Of a stretch of 64,000 bases of DNA, positions 57,145-64,000 are shown piece by piece. Each line of letters opens with the position of its first letter. Position 1 is the first letter of the stretch. The stretch spans positions 1-64,000 of the forward strand of contig JACRFB010000006.1 in NCBI GenBank assembly GCA_016218045.1. The letters run 5' to 3'. Both the position numbers and the translations under genes were made by a program. The stretch is from Ignavibacteriota bacterium (lineage in GTDB: Bacteria > Bacteroidota > Ignavibacteria > SZUA-365). Below the pieces are notes generated by a model. It was not told the origin of the DNA. It ran no database searches and saw only the letters and a program-made list of their open reading frames with translations.

Positions 57145-58146
57145 ATGAACATTGGTGTCATTGGTGCGGGTAGTTGGGGAACCACACTCGCCGTCCTCCT
57201 CCATGAGAACGGTCATACTGTCACGCTGTGGAGTTTTGTGCCAGCCGATGTCGAGACCATGCGCGCGACACGCCGCAACCTCTCGTACATGCCCGAGCTG
57301 GAACTGCCGGCAGCGCTCGAGGTGACGGACGACATATCACGCGCCGCGTCCGGCAAGGATCTGCTCCTGCTGGCCACACCGTCGCAGTTCCTCCGCGGAG
57401 TGCTTCAACAGGCCGCCGCGTCTATCAGCGGTGATCCGATTCTGGTGAATGTTGCAAAGGGCATCGAGACCACCACGCTGCTGCGCATGTCGGAACTTGT
57501 GGCGGACTGCCTGCCCGCGTCCTCGCCCGACCGCTACTCCGTTCTGTCAGGACCCAGTCACGCGGAGGAAGTCGCGATTGGAAAGGCCACATCGGTGGTT
57601 GCCGCCTCCGTATCTGCCGACACTGTGCAGGCCGTGCAGAAGGCCTTCATGCAACCGGCCTTCCGCGTCTATGGCAGCAGCGATGTGATCGGCGTGGAAC
57701 TCGGCGGCTCGTTAAAAAATGTCATCGCAATTGGGGCGGGAATTTGTGACGGTGCGGGCTTCGGCGACAACACCAAGGCGGCGCTGATCACACGCGGCAT
57801 CGCCGAAATGCGCCGGCTCGGCATCGCTCTGGGCGCCGAACCGCATACCTTCGCGGGCCTCTCGGGATTGGGCGACCTTATCGTGACGACCATGAGCCGC
57901 CACAGCCGCAACCGCCACGTCGGCGAGGAAATCGGACGCGGGCGCACGCTCGCGCAGATCCTCGCATCCATGCGTATGGTCGCCGAGGGGGTGGACACCA
58001 CACGTTCAGCGCACGCGCTCGCATTGCGCACCGGCGCCGAGATGCCGATCACACATCAGATGTATCACATCCTGTTCGACGAAAAACCTCCTGAAGTCGC
58101 CGTCCGCGATCTCATGACCCGCTCCGCGAGAGACGAAGTATGGTAG
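57145..58146 (+). CDS. gpsA: Glycerol-3-phosphate dehydrogenase [NAD(P)+]
   Basis: 333 residues. The dinucleotide-binding motif is IGVIGAGSWGTTLAVLL, with GPSHAEEVA and the catalytic Lys in GGSLKNVIAIGAGICDG. The enzyme reduces dihydroxyacetone phosphate for phospholipid synthesis. Its last 7 bases overlap the start of the giant kinase/sigma54 regulator gene. Confidence 0.95.
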   Translation: MNIGVIGAGSWGTTLAVLLHENGHTVTLWSFVPADVETMRATRRNLSYMPELELPAALEVTDDISRAASGKDLLLLATPSQFLRGVLQQAAASISGDPILVNVAKGIETTTLLRMSELVADCLPASSPDRYSVLSGPSHAEEVAIGKATSVVAASVSADTVQAVQKAFMQPAFRVYGSSDVIGVELGGSLKNVIAIGAGICDGAGFGDNTKAALITRGIAEMRRLGIALGAEPHTFAGLSGLGDLIVTTMSRHSRNRHVGEEIGRGRTLAQILASMRMVAEGVDTTRSAHALALRTGAEMPITHQMYHILFDEKPPEVAVRDLMTRSARDEVW

Positions 58147-61100
58147 AAGCGGACTTCCCCGTGGTACCAGGATACACGATTCTCGACCATGCCGGCAGCG
58201 GCGGCGCGGGCGACGTGTTCCGCGCACGCAGCGAGGAAAGCGGCGAGATCGTGGCCGTAAAAATTCTGCGCGATCCCTCGTCCGACGACGGCGATCTGCG
58301 CCATGAATACCAGGTGCTCAGCGCCCTCGATCATCCCTCTCTCGCGCGTATGCTCGCATGCGGGAAAACCGGATCGGATCATCCTTTTCTCGTCATGAGC
58401 TGGAGCGAGGGCGCGGCGATGACACGCGCGCTCTTTCTTCACGAAGACGGCACTTTCGACAACCGCGCCTTCGCGCGTGCCATACTTCGTGTGGCGGAAG
58501 CCCTCGTGCATATCCACGTGCAGGGGGTCATTCATGGAGATCTGAAGCCGGCGAATATCCTGATACGCCGCGGTGATGACGGATCGATCGAAGCGACCGT
58601 GATGGATTTCGGACTCAGCAGACACGCGCGCGACGGCAGGAACGGTCTCGCCGGAACGGCGGAATATCTGGCACCGGAACTCATTCGCGGCGACGAACCC
58701 GGCGTCGGTTCTGACCTCTACGCACTCGGCTGCACCCTGTACGAATGTGTCGTGGACGATCCGCCGTTCACAGGCGCGGATCTGGCCGACGTGCTCGCGC
58801 GGCACGTGCGCGAAACCCCCGCGCCGCCTTCCGCCGACGGGTTCGATGCCACCATCCAATCGTGGATACTCACGCTCCTGGAAAAAGACCCGGCACTCCG
58901 ATTTCGCGGCGCGGCACGGCTTGCCGCCGAGGCGGCCGCGTATCTCGGCCTCGAGTCGGCGGCGCGACCCGATGCGGCCACCGCGTTGCGGCTCCCGAAA
59001 GTGCCCCGCGAACAGGAGCTTTCCAAACTCCACGAGCTGCGCGCGCTGTCCGAAACACGCGCGCGGATTGCGCTCGTGGAGGGAGGCGCAGGTGCCGGCA
59101 AAACGACGCTCCTCAAGGACCTGCGAACCTCGCTTGTGCTCGACGGGATTCCCGTTCTCGCTCTCGGTCCGCGCACAGGCGACGAGCCCTTCGCGCCCAT
59201 CCTGCGTGGACTCCGCGCACAGGCGCACGGGACGTACGACGACACGCTGCTTCCCGAAGCCGGGGTCATCGCCGCGGCCTTTCCTGACGCGCTGCCCGGT
59301 GTCGCCCAGGCATCACTGGAGAGTCTGACGCCGGATGCGCTGAAGCTGCGTGTGTTTCTCGCGGCCTCGATCCTGCTCGTGGGCGGAAACGCATCCCGCG
59401 CGCTGCTGTTCGAAGATTTTGACGCAGCGGACGAACTGACACGCGAATTCCTTCTCTCGTTCGTCTCCTATCTTCACGCCCGTGAACAGGCCGGGTGTTT
59501 TGTCGTGATCACGGCCGACGCAGTCAATGCCGCGAACGAGTTCAATCAGCTCGCGGAGATTCCCGGCACAACACGCATCCCCATACCGCCGCTCAGTCCC
59601 GATGCGCTCAGCGCCTCGATCCGCGGACTGCTCGGCAAAGCCGTCTCGCCTTCTTTCCTGAGCATTCTTCTGCGGCAATCAGCGGGACTCCCCGGCCGCG
59701 TGGAGGAACTGCTCTCGTTCTGTCTTTCCGAAGGTGTACTCGAGGCCACGCCGCACGGCTGGCTGGTGCACGAGCGCGACAACCTGGCCGGCATTTTTCC
59801 GGCATCCGTCGAGGATCAGCTCCGCCGCATCATCGCCCGTCTTGAAGCGGACACACGCACCGTCCTGGCCGCGGTGGCGCTCTCCCCCGCGCCTGTTCCG
59901 ATGACCTGCCTGATGGACGTGTGCGCGCGTCCCGCCGCGGCCATCACGTCCGACCTCGGTCTTTTGCATGCGGCAGGACTCGTCGCACACGACGCTATTG
60001 CCGTATGGGCGGCCAACACCGCCGTGACACACGCCGCGAAGCCACCGGCTGCGGAAGCACGGCAGTTGCACGACCGCTTGTATGCCTGGCATGACGCGTC
60101 CCGCACGCCCGACCCATACGTGCGGGCCGTTCACGCCTATGCCTCGAGCACGCCGGAAAACGCACTCGACGATTTGCTTGAGGCGGCGCGTATACGGGCA
60201 CGGCGCTTCGATATCCGCAAGGCCGAGGAGCTGTTTGTCGCGGCGCTGACTCTGCTCAAGGCGCCGTCCCAAGCGGAGGCGCGCTTCTCGGCTATGTCGT
60301 CGCTCATCGACATCGTGAACGTGCTGGGCAGGCGTGATGCGGAAGAGGAATACCTCGAGGAGATGCTCGTACTCGGCGCGCAGTCGGGCAATCCCGACCG
60401 TCTCGCCGAAGTGTACCGGCATCAGACCGAGTACTACATTTCAGTGGCGGAATTCGATCGCGCGCGGAAGAGCGCCGAGAAGGCGCTCGCCTATGCCACA
60501 CAGGCGGGCGACCGCCACAACGAGGCGTATTGCCACAGGAAGCTGGGCTTCATCGAGTACAGGACGCGTCCCGGCCAGGCGGTGGTGGATCATTATTCAC
60601 GCGCGCTGGCCGTGTACGAAAGTGATGGCAGCGCGTCCGACGCGGGCCAGGTGCTCGTGGATATCGGACTTGTGTATTACTCCATCCTCGACGATCCACC
60701 GAAGGCGTTGGAGCATTTCGCACGCGCGCGGACTCTCTTCGACGGCGCGGGAGACAAGCGCGGGCTGATCCGCGCCGAGGGCAACACGGGTGCGCAGTTG
60801 TACTCGCTGGGCCTGTACGAGGAGGCGCACGAGCATCAGGTGCGTGCAAATGCCATAGCGCGGGAGATCGGCGATCGCCGCTTCCTGGCGACCTCGCTCG
60901 GTTCGCTCGCGCAGTGTGAACTTGCCCTGTGCAGATATTCCGAGGCGCTGCTGCATCTGAACGAAGAGCTGCGCATCAGCAGGGAAATTCGGGACAAGTA
61001 TCTCGAGGAACTCTGCCTCGAGAACATCGGGGAATTGTATCTGAGTCTCGGCGAGTACGACAAGTCCATCGCCGCGTACACCGACGCGAAACGGCTCGCG

Positions 61101-63236
61101 ACGGAAAGCGGCAACGAGGTCGGCTCGATCGCCTGCGACATCGACATCGCCGGCGGCATGATCGAGAACCGCGACACGGACGCGGCCGCCAAACTTCTGC
61201 GCGCGGCGCGCGCGGCGCTGACGGAGTTGCACGACGTGAACGTCGAGGCGATGCTGCTGTACCGGACCGGCATGCTGCACATCGCGCGCGGCCCGCTCCA
61301 CGACGCCGATCGCGCCCTCGAGGCCTTCCGCGCTCTCGGCGATCTCGCCGACGCGCAGGATTTCCGCTCGCATCGCATCCTCGCGCGCTCCTACGCGGGG
61401 CGCTGCCTCATGCTGAGCGGGCGCCATGCGGAGGGCGAGGCGTTATCGTCGGCCGCTGTGGCGCTGCTGGACGAGGGCGGCCCGCTCTATGGTGGAGCGG
61501 CCGATGTGCTGCTCAACCACGCGCTGGTATTGCGCGCGCAGCGCAGCGCCGATGCCGTTGCCTTCGTCGATCGCGCGTACGCCGAGCTGATGCGCGTCGC
61601 GGAAATGATCGACGATGTGCACCTGTACCGCAGTTTCCTCGAGCGCGTCAGGGTCAATGCCGAGATCGTGCGCGAGTATACGCTCGCCCATCGAGGAGAT
61701 TCGAAGGACGCGATCTCCGCCGTCCGCGAACAGAATCTCCGCACGCTGTACGAAGTCGCGCGCAAGATCAATTCCGTGCTGGACCTTCCGCCCCTGCTCG
61801 AGAACATCATGGACAGCGCCCTCGAGGCGATGAACGGCGAACGCGGCCTGATCTTTTTCATCGAGGACGACCAACTGGTGCTGAAAGTGTCGCGCAATGT
61901 CGAGAAGGAAACCATCGAGGACGCGACTGCCATCAGTCTCAGCATTCTTCGCGACGTCGTTGCGGGCGGCAAACCCATCATCGTGGCCGACACCGCGCAG
62001 AGCGAGGAATTCCGCAACCGCGAGTCCGTGCGGAATTTCAACATTCATTCGCTCGTGTGTGTCCCCATGCGCTCGAAATCGCGACTCATCGGCACAGTGT
62101 ATGTCGACAGCCGCAGTGATGCGCTGCGCGCGATTTCGTTCTCCGACATCGACGCCGAATTTCTCGAGGCCTTTGCGAACCTCGCCACCATCGCCATCGA
62201 AAACGCGCGTCTGCACGCCTCGCTGCGCGAGGAGAACCTGTATCTCCGCAAGGCCATGACGCGGCAGTTCGGATTCGAGAACATCATCGGCGACAGCGAC
62301 ATCATGCAGCGGCTCTTCTCCGAAACACAGGGCGCCATCTCGACCGACGGCGCGGTGTTGATCTCCGGGGAGAGCGGCACTGGAAAGGAGCTGGTGGCGA
62401 AGGCGATCCATTTCAATGGCGCGCGCAAGGACCGTCGTTTTGTCGCCGTCGACTGCGGCGCGCTGCCCGACACATTGCTCGAAAGCGAATTGTTCGGCTA
62501 CAAACGCGGCGCATTCACCGGCGCATACACCGACAAACCCGGCCTGTTCGAAGAGGCGCACGAAGGCACTCTGTTCCTGGATGAAATCTCGAACACGTCG
62601 CTCGCCTTTCAGGCCAAACTCCTGCGCGTGCTGCAGGACGGCGAGTTCCGCCGGGTCGGCGACACTGCCGTGCGACGCGTCAACGTCCGCATCATCTGCG
62701 CGACCAACAAACATCTCGACGCGGAAATCGAGGAGGGACGGTTCCGGCAGGATCTGTTCTATCGCCTGAACGTCATCCCCATCACGGTTCCCTCGCTGCG
62801 CGACCGCGTGGGCGACGTGCCGCTCCTGGTGCAACACTTCATCGCGAAGTATGCGGAGAAACATCCCACGCCGGTGACCGGGGCAAGCTCCGAGCTGATC
62901 GAAACTCTGCAGCGCTGTCCGTGGAAAGGCAACGTCCGCGAACTGGAGAACCTCATCAATCGCATGATGACACAGGCCGCGGAAGCCGTGCTGTCAACAC
63001 GGAACCTCCCCGCCGATTACCAGCAGTATCAGGTCGACACCGCTCCCTCCGCTGGCGGCGACTATCAGGTCACGTTCAAATCCGCCCCGAAACTCGTGAC
63101 ACTACAGCAGGCGGAACGCGAACACATATTGAATGTGCTCCAGCATGTAAAAGGCAATAGGACTGAAGCTGCCAAAATACTCGGTCTCAAGCGCACGACA
63201 CTGATAGAAAAAATGAAGAAATTGGGCATCATGTAG
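58140..63236 (+). CDS. Ser/Thr kinase-AAA-TPR-GAF-sigma54 activator fusion
   Basis: 1698 residues, in order: a protein kinase (Lys41 in VAVKIL, HGDLKPAN at 132-139, DFG at 156-158, APE at 178-180); an AAA ATPase with P-loop GGAGAGKT (315-322); TPR-like repeats about 690-1190; a GAF domain about 1204-1360; a sigma54-interaction AAA+ domain with GESGTGKE (about 1410) and the RGAFTGA loop (about 1458); and a Fis-type helix-turn-helix at the C-terminus (GNRTEAAKILGLKRTTLIEK). Only the kinase-AAA-GAF order is familiar, from cyanobacterial and other kinases that end in a histidine kinase; here the output is NtrC-type transcription activation. It overlaps gpsA by 7 bases. A sigma54-like promoter lies just downstream. 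Confidence 0.92.
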   Translation: MVEADFPVVPGYTILDHAGSGGAGDVFRARSEESGEIVAVKILRDPSSDDGDLRHEYQVLSALDHPSLARMLACGKTGSDHPFLVMSWSEGAAMTRALFLHEDGTFDNRAFARAILRVAEALVHIHVQGVIHGDLKPANILIRRGDDGSIEATVMDFGLSRHARDGRNGLAGTAEYLAPELIRGDEPGVGSDLYALGCTLYECVVDDPPFTGADLADVLARHVRETPAPPSADGFDATIQSWILTLLEKDPALRFRGAARLAAEAAAYLGLESAARPDAATALRLPKVPREQELSKLHELRALSETRARIALVEGGAGAGKTTLLKDLRTSLVLDGIPVLALGPRTGDEPFAPILRGLRAQAHGTYDDTLLPEAGVIAAAFPDALPGVAQASLESLTPDALKLRVFLAASILLVGGNASRALLFEDFDAADELTREFLLSFVSYLHAREQAGCFVVITADAVNAANEFNQLAEIPGTTRIPIPPLSPDALSASIRGLLGKAVSPSFLSILLRQSAGLPGRVEELLSFCLSEGVLEATPHGWLVHERDNLAGIFPASVEDQLRRIIARLEADTRTVLAAVALSPAPVPMTCLMDVCARPAAAITSDLGLLHAAGLVAHDAIAVWAANTAVTHAAKPPAAEARQLHDRLYAWHDASRTPDPYVRAVHAYASSTPENALDDLLEAARIRARRFDIRKAEELFVAALTLLKAPSQAEARFSAMSSLIDIVNVLGRRDAEEEYLEEMLVLGAQSGNPDRLAEVYRHQTEYYISVAEFDRARKSAEKALAYATQAGDRHNEAYCHRKLGFIEYRTRPGQAVVDHYSRALAVYESDGSASDAGQVLVDIGLVYYSILDDPPKALEHFARARTLFDGAGDKRGLIRAEGNTGAQLYSLGLYEEAHEHQVRANAIAREIGDRRFLATSLGSLAQCELALCRYSEALLHLNEELRISREIRDKYLEELCLENIGELYLSLGEYDKSIAAYTDAKRLATESGNEVGSIACDIDIAGGMIENRDTDAAAKLLRAARAALTELHDVNVEAMLLYRTGMLHIARGPLHDADRALEAFRALGDLADAQDFRSHRILARSYAGRCLMLSGRHAEGEALSSAAVALLDEGGPLYGGAADVLLNHALVLRAQRSADAVAFVDRAYAELMRVAEMIDDVHLYRSFLERVRVNAEIVREYTLAHRGDSKDAISAVREQNLRTLYEVARKINSVLDLPPLLENIMDSALEAMNGERGLIFFIEDDQLVLKVSRNVEKETIEDATAISLSILRDVVAGGKPIIVADTAQSEEFRNRESVRNFNIHSLVCVPMRSKSRLIGTVYVDSRSDALRAISFSDIDAEFLEAFANLATIAIENARLHASLREENLYLRKAMTRQFGFENIIGDSDIMQRLFSETQGAISTDGAVLISGESGTGKELVAKAIHFNGARKDRRFVAVDCGALPDTLLESELFGYKRGAFTGAYTDKPGLFEEAHEGTLFLDEISNTSLAFQAKLLRVLQDGEFRRVGDTAVRRVNVRIICATNKHLDAEIEEGRFRQDLFYRLNVIPITVPSLRDRVGDVPLLVQHFIAKYAEKHPTPVTGASSELIETLQRCPWKGNVRELENLINRMMTQAAEAVLSTRNLPADYQQYQVDTAPSAGGDYQVTFKSAPKLVTLQQAEREHILNVLQHVKGNRTEAAKILGLKRTTLIEKMKKLGIM

Positions 63237-63303
63237 CGTCGGCATTTTGACGGGGAAGGAAATATTGGCGTCAGTAGTCCGCCGCTTCTGCAGATATCTT
63301 GTT

Positions 63304-63316
63304 TTTCAGGCTGAAA
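63304..63316. promoter_or_regulatory. Palindrome upstream of the sigma54-type promoter
   Basis: TTTCAG-G-CTGAAA, a perfect 13-base palindrome 15 bases upstream of the -24 element. It may be a binding site of the adjacent activator or of another regulator. Confidence 0.4.
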
Positions 63317-63330
63317 TCGGCTATTTTCCC

Positions 63331-63346
63331 TGGCACCATTTCTGCA
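63331..63346 (+). promoter_or_regulatory. Sigma54-type (-24/-12) promoter
   Basis: TGGCAC (63331-63336) and TGCA (63343-63346) with exactly 10 bases between the invariant GG (63332-63333) and GC (63344-63345). Both motif halves match the sigma54 consensus; the flanking bases at positions 7 and 12 do not. Confidence 0.6.
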
Positions 63347-63451
63347 TGGATATTATTGAAGTACACGGGTTCGCACACGCAATTTTTCCTTGCGCAAACC
63401 ATCCGAATTCCGTAGTTTTTCTCCATTAATCCGATCCAGAACTCCTATACT

Positions 63452-64000
63452 TTGAGACGCGCAGCGAACATACTTTTTATCTTCACGGCGTTGTTCGTGA
63501 TGAGAGCCAGCTCCCAGCAGGTTATCATCGACGATCTGTCGTATGAAGTGAGTATGTACGGCGATGTGGTTCTCACATGGTCATTGCCTCAGGGTGTTGC
63601 AATCTCCCATTTCACGGTATTCCGTGGTCTGAGCCCGGCCGATCTGAAACCCATCGCGGAAATCTATTCCCCCGCCGCGCGGCAGTACACCGATCACCGC
63701 TCGAATCTGATTCCCGGTTCAACCTATATTTATTGGCTTGAAGCGACGGACCGGCAGGGCAACACCGGCTGGAAGGTGATTCCTGTCAAGGTCACTCCTC
63801 CATCGGGAGGTATGAAGTTCACCTCCAAGCCCGAAGTGACCGGTTTTGTCGGACAGGACTACTGGTACATTCCGATCACCGTCGATGCTGAGAAGCAGGA
63901 GGACGTTGAGTACACATTCGGCGGGCCGCATCCCGACGGCATGGTGTTCAACTCCGTCGGCGGCGGACTTGTTACGAGTCTGTACTGGCTCCCTATCAAG
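63452..64000 (+). CDS. Exported FN3 domain protein, cut by window edge
   Basis: 183 residues visible; the gene continues past the right edge. It starts at a TTG (63452) giving LRRAANILFIFTALFVMRAS, a signal peptide; the frame is closed by a stop at 63413 and has no ATG before the signal. A fibronectin type III domain follows (VLTWSLPQGVAISHFTVFRG to STYIYWLEATDRQGN), then a second domain of cadherin-like or putative Ig type (FVGQDYWYIPITVDAE, then YTFGGPHPDGMVFN). Proteins of this form in this lineage are often T9SS cargo, but the C-terminus is not in view. It is the apparent target of the sigma54-type promoter. Confidence 0.7.
   Translation, partial: MRRAANILFIFTALFVMRASSQQVIIDDLSYEVSMYGDVVLTWSLPQGVAISHFTVFRGLSPADLKPIAEIYSPAARQYTDHRSNLIPGSTYIYWLEATDRQGNTGWKVIPVKVTPPSGGMKFTSKPEVTGFVGQDYWYIPITVDAEKQEDVEYTFGGPHPDGMVFNSVGGGLVTSLYWLPIK

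Follow-up and report, generated by a model that had tools for sequence, protein, structure and literature searches.

At one end of the DNA analysed here (the window, 64,000 nucleotides of contig JACRFB010000006.1 from an Ignavibacteriota bacterium), a gene for a large activator is followed by a gene for an exported protein on the same strand. A sequence-only reading had proposed that the first controls the second through a -24/-12 promoter and a palindrome lying between them. The locus therefore raises the question of whether the two genes form a regulatory pair and, if so, which of the sites between them serve the activator.

The activator and its secreted neighbour

The activator gene (58140..63236, forward strand, stop codon TAG at 63234-63236), delimited by its ORF, its Pfam domains and its orthologs, encodes a protein of 1698 aa in which Pfam finds Pkinase, AAA_16, TPR, GAF, Sigma54_activat, AAA lid and HTH_8. 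The Ser/Thr protein kinase domain (PF00069, 58173..58904, +) retains, by eye, the motifs VAVK, HGDLKPAN and DFG. The GAF domain (PF01590, residues 1215-1353, 61782..62198, +) precedes the sigma-54 interaction AAA+ domain (PF00158, E 5e-68, 62283..62783, +), with GESGTGKE as Walker A and a GAFTGA loop, and the protein ends in a Fis-type helix-turn-helix (HTH_8, PF02954, residues 1655-1695, E 3.3e-12, 63102..63224, +). An AAA+ sigma-54 domain with GAFTGA and a C-terminal Fis-type HTH are the features of a bacterial enhancer binding protein (bEBP). In the ortholog alignment the GAFTGA residues and most HTH_8 residues are invariant, and the HTH end (LGLKRTTL-EKMKKLG) is nearly so, which is consistent with a constant binding site. 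In NCBIfam the protein scores highest against NifA, with 385 bits for a cut-off of 529, and against NorR, with 341 bits for a cut-off of 476; as neither cut-off is reached, the protein is not taken as an equivalog of either.

The presence of a sigma-54 gene had been named as a check on the proposal, and rpoN indeed occurs once in the genome (PF04552, G000:C52:82233-82703, E 2.1e-58). It was likewise found in 16 out of 16 near-complete genomes, among 21 searched. Genomes of family f3 carry a second paralog of the kinase-bEBP type (L167, full length). The second paralog at L168 (genome G015) is followed by a target-like gene of its own, with TGGTACG-N4-TTGTA, a weak variant, upstream.

The downstream gene, here called the target, has a TTG start at 63452 and continues on the forward strand past the end of the window (63452..64000), reaching 743 aa on the contig; 215 bp separate it from the activator gene. 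Two CarboxypepD_reg domains were found by Pfam, with Por_Secre_tail just under threshold (25.7, cut-off 27) and the T9SS type A sorting domain above it in NCBIfam (TIGR04183, 29.1 bits, cut-off 23). The genome also encodes the T9SS translocon protein SprA (TIGR04189, 1011 bits, cut-off 200). By these matches the target is a carboxypeptidase-regulatory-like surface protein with a T9SS type A tail. It had been described as an exported FN3 protein: export stands, now with a T9SS tail, and the FN3 assignment does not, since Pfam gives CarboxypepD_reg and nothing for fn3 at E values of 0.05 or less, the N-terminal ~90 residues being FN3-like by eye only.

Beyond the window, multi-CxxCH (multihaem cytochrome-like) proteins are encoded convergently with the target gene (L024 11162-15517, minus strand, which corresponds to contig C6 ~66.2-70.5 kb), adjoined by NADH-dehydrogenase-like membrane subunits.

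Elements of the intergenic region

The proposed promoter was confirmed on re-reading the sequence, in coordinates, distances and spacing alike. TGGCAC-N6-TGCA occupies 63331-63346 on the forward strand, 95 nt past the activator stop and 105 nt ahead of the next ORF. The element, TGGCACCATTTCTGCA, has GG at -24 and GC at -12 with the canonical 10 bp between them, and it departs from TGGCACG-N4-TTGCW at two places only: the weakly conserved G is C, and the first T of TTGC is C. The predicted +1 lies near 63357. The pattern TGGCACN6TGCW occurs once in the window, against 0.26 expected. Genome-wide, TGGCACN6TGC gives 31 sites; among the 30 classified, the one at 63331 is alone outside predicted ORFs, a split that is rough because the ORFs were called mechanically. 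The -24/-12 score of the 215-bp region was matched by 0.1% of its dinucleotide shuffles (p = 0.001).

Activator orthologs were collected from the same family and order, and 14 loci, the window included, extend into the downstream region; they fall into three families (f1, the window's own, f2 and f3). In all 14 the target gene lies directly 3' of the activator gene, and in all 14 intergenic regions the best -24/-12 match sits at the corresponding place: 94-97 nt past the activator stop in 10 f1 species, 106 nt in f2 and 124 nt in three f3 species. Taken region by region, the shuffle p values run from 0.001 to 0.07. The activators themselves are only 48-72% identical, and much of the spacer elsewhere is poorly conserved. 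L058 and L061 read CGGCA at -24, and the f2 region (L066) reads TTTCA instead of TTGCA at -12, with the G of GC missing; no rpoN was found in the L066 genome, which is 74% complete. On this evidence, 63331-63346 appears to be a genuine, conserved sigma-54 promoter, ordinary in kind.

An alignment-free count of all gapped 4+3-mers in 11 regions, against shuffled sequences, placed GGCA-N8-GCA and its shifted forms joint first (found in 8 of the 11 regions, against at most 4-5 after shuffling). Level with it were TTGC-N18-GTA, TGCA-N18-TAA and an AT-rich repeat, and CGTC-N8-GAC came next (7 of 11 regions versus 4-5 in shuffled sequences). The regions share descent, so these counts are not independent events.

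Upstream of the promoter, two dyads stand out. Dyad 1, CGTCGGCATTTTGACG (63237..63252), of the form YGTCR-N6-YGACR, comes right behind the activator stop in 14/14 regions; it is perfect in 12 and has one mismatch in L062 and L063. A weaker second copy follows 28-33 bp downstream in the orthologous regions and corresponds in the window to dyad 2, CGTCAGTAGTCCGCCG (63269..63284). The two window dyads, the first perfect and the second with one mismatch, are 32 bp apart, or three helical turns. Reckoned from the predicted +1 at 63357, their centres fall at about -113 and -81, the usual distance for bEBP sites and within the enhancer range of roughly 80-150 bp ahead of the start. Their position and conservation make the two dyads the likely binding sites (UAS) of the activator.

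One more conserved element, absent from the sequence-only reading, lies downstream of the -24/-12 site and ahead of the start codon. TTGCGC-N17-TAGTTT (63390..63418, forward strand; hexamers at 63390-63395 and 63413-63418) has counterparts as TTGC-N17-TA-like pairs, spaced by exactly 17 bp, in every one of the 14 regions. From the general sigma-70 consensus we take it to be a sigmaA-type promoter. Its conservation makes some basal transcription of the target likely as well, and a basal level is probably what it provides.

Several f1 regions, L058, L061 and L065 among them, also carry an AT-rich dyad, CATTAA-N7-TTAATG (e.g., CATTAATGAAACTTTAATG), just past the -12 element. It is kept in several relatives and decayed in the window, and is perhaps the operator of another regulator.

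Proposed control and competing readings

It is thus quite probable, as judged from the compared sequences, that 63237-63418 is a compound control region in which the neighbouring activator, placed on the dyads, would drive the -24/-12 promoter of the T9SS-tailed target, with the sigmaA-like promoter adding a basal supply. A conserved sigma-54 promoter together with two activator-type sites makes it very probable that the adjacent surface-protein gene is turned on by the activator. In the proposed sequence of events, the Fis-type HTH of the kinase-AAA_16-TPR-GAF-AAA+ protein would bind the dyads at 63237-63252 and 63269-63284, and input through the kinase, TPR and GAF regions would switch the activator so that it oligomerises there. 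It would then loop to RNA polymerase-sigma54 at 63331-63346, where the GAFTGA loop would open the promoter. The transcript would encode the single secreted surface protein. What the sequences show are the elements and their conservation, the order of the genes, rpoN and the motifs of the activator; dyad binding, activation, the signal and the control of the AAA+ domain by the kinase are what we infer. Control of the secreted neighbour by the kinase-activator, as first suggested, is well supported at the sequence level by footprinting, synteny, the presence of rpoN and the intact GAFTGA and HTH.

Other readings of the region have to be weighed against this one. Most of the transcription may come from the conserved sigmaA-like promoter, leaving the -24/-12 site a minor role or one confined to rare conditions. 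Its exact 17-bp spacing in all regions and its high rank in the de novo count of gapped k-mers speak for such a view, which nevertheless leaves the equal conservation of GGCA-N8-GCA and of the dyads unexplained; moreover, loci of other families retain a -24/-12-like motif, placed 39-113 nt ahead of the start. We regard it as improbable that the target is transcribed mainly from 63390-63418. A true sigma-54 promoter could also be activated in trans by a different bEBP, and with 17 strong Sigma54_activat matches the genome has candidates to offer. Such an arrangement is hard to reconcile with the adjacency of activator and target in every orthologous locus, or with conserved dyads lying between exactly these two genes at a typical enhancer distance, and appears quite improbable.

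Chance resemblance would mean that there is no promoter at 63331 at all. The motif is short, and 24 of 100 window shuffles contain at least one TGGCACN6TGCW match; however, this is the sole non-coding match among the classified sites and its position is conserved across 14 species, a footprint that makes coincidence barely credible. The last reading concerns the operator. The palindrome TTTCAG-G-CTGAAA, TTTCAGGCTGAAA, had been noted ahead of the promoter and assigned to the activator. It is present at 63304-63316, 14 nt before TGGCAC, it is a perfect 6-1-6 palindrome and it lies in the right region, but it shows no excess over chance: palindromes of this kind are common (16 in 38 kb of contig versus ~9 expected for random sequence). 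None of the other 13 orthologous regions has it, and it would lie only ~41-53 nt ahead of the predicted start, which is close for an enhancer. A role as the activator's operator is therefore very unlikely and was set aside; the palindrome is probably incidental, and the conserved dyads further upstream take its place in our reading.

Additional targets of the activator were sought with patterns built from these sites. A composite of UAS and promoter, run over 17 genomes, and the paired-dyad pattern, run over 15, each returned the known locus plus scattered matches in numbers close to those of the reversed control. When 30 paired-dyad loci were classified, nearly all besides the known ones lay inside predicted ORFs. 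As these searches yielded no convincing second target, the predicted site has no cross-check on a regulon.

Known regulators and a possible wider class

The preferred reading, that of an activator driving its neighbour from the dyads, has partial parallels. The core of the activator (GAF, AAA+ with GAFTGA, HTH_8) resembles that of NorR, NifA and FhlA, the GAF-containing (group 3) bEBPs (PMC7175178); that review also sets out the general mechanism of bEBPs. Unlike NorR, NifA and FhlA, the protein has a Ser/Thr kinase at its N-terminus as well as an AAA_16 NTPase and TPR repeats, and none of the five tabulated groups of bEBP regulation has a kinase domain as the regulator (PMC7175178). In Desulfovibrio vulgaris, the bEBPs DVU2275 and DVU2827 are co-localised with their sigma-54 target operons (PMC4641369). 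There, as here, the activator adjoins its target, and a conserved sigma-54 promoter with a predicted palindromic site upstream was recognised through comparative genomics. The Desulfovibrio targets are metabolic operons, whereas the window's is a single secreted surface protein, in another phylum and with a tandem sigmaA-like promoter. In Porphyromonas gingivalis, the two-component system PorXY and the ECF sigma factor SigP control the T9SS machine (PMC4800418, PMC7712824). Both cases tie regulation to type IX secretion in Bacteroidota, but the window's sigma-54 promoter and kinase-bEBP would act on one predicted substrate. In an uncultured Bacteroidota lineage, the locus would offer a concrete circuit of one activator and one sigma-54 target, with its sites predicted. 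It would connect signalling by a Ser/Thr kinase with enhancer-dependent transcription, and would have T9SS cargo controlled by a route unlike PorXY-SigP. No description of the locus was found in the literature, which is weak evidence because subscription papers mostly lay outside the search.

More distant families have comparable elements in another layout. In f9, f10, f13 and f19, the homologs most similar to the target body are encoded ~3-6 kb downstream of a GAF-AAA-HTH activator of ~490-570 aa; in f11 the homolog is upstream of the activator and farther off. This cluster activator is adjoined by a Ser/Thr kinase, with PEGA domains in both kinases scanned, followed in most cases by a T9SS-tailed protein (with Kelch repeats in one scanned) and then by an exported protein of ~275 aa. 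In L148-L165 the order reads lipoprotein-like CarboxypepD_reg protein, GAF-bEBP, PEGA Ser/Thr kinase, in most loci a T9SS-tailed (Kelch) protein, ~275-aa exported protein, target homolog.

The degenerate pattern [TC]GG[CT]AY-N6-TG[CAT] occurs upstream of the target homolog in 14 of 16 loci, versus 2% of control windows. Since it was composed after the sequences had been seen, and since several distant families have TTGA rather than TTGC at -12, this is supporting but not independent evidence. The upstream dyads vary by family, those of f9 being of the TGCA type and those of three f13 loci of the CGAAAAATTTTCG type, and so do the HTH ends (LGVSLRWLQYRLKEWG); differences in both fit a co-evolution of site and HTH across families. 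Among the loci that were readable, every order-level relative keeps the arrangement of activator, promoter and target, and most of the more distant relatives have a modified version of it.

One possibility is that the window protein is a Rosetta-stone fusion of the cluster kinase and bEBP. In the kinase tree, fused and cluster kinases form separate groups and other kinases are nearer to the cluster ones; in the bEBP tree, a single clade of fused and cluster activators is neither favoured nor rejected (p-AU 0.147). We put forward only tentatively, as something that may well not hold, a class-wide module of Ignavibacteria-type Bacteroidota: a sigma-54 enhancer that serves a single T9SS surface protein and is under the control of a Ser/Thr kinase. 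The kinase would be separate (PEGA) in most families and fused to the NTPase-TPR-GAF sensor and bEBP in the window's order, in a pathway outside the five tabulated bEBP groups. What is unusual about the locus is the fusion of kinase and bEBP, together with the link to one surface protein across the class.

In public records the relatives appear as MAGs under the names Bacteroidetes/Bacteroidota and Ignavibacteria. One further record, L124 (PABJ01000031.1), is titled Ectothiorhodospiraceae bacterium and carries a Bacteroidota-type locus; its label is probably wrong, as the record encodes a member of this group.
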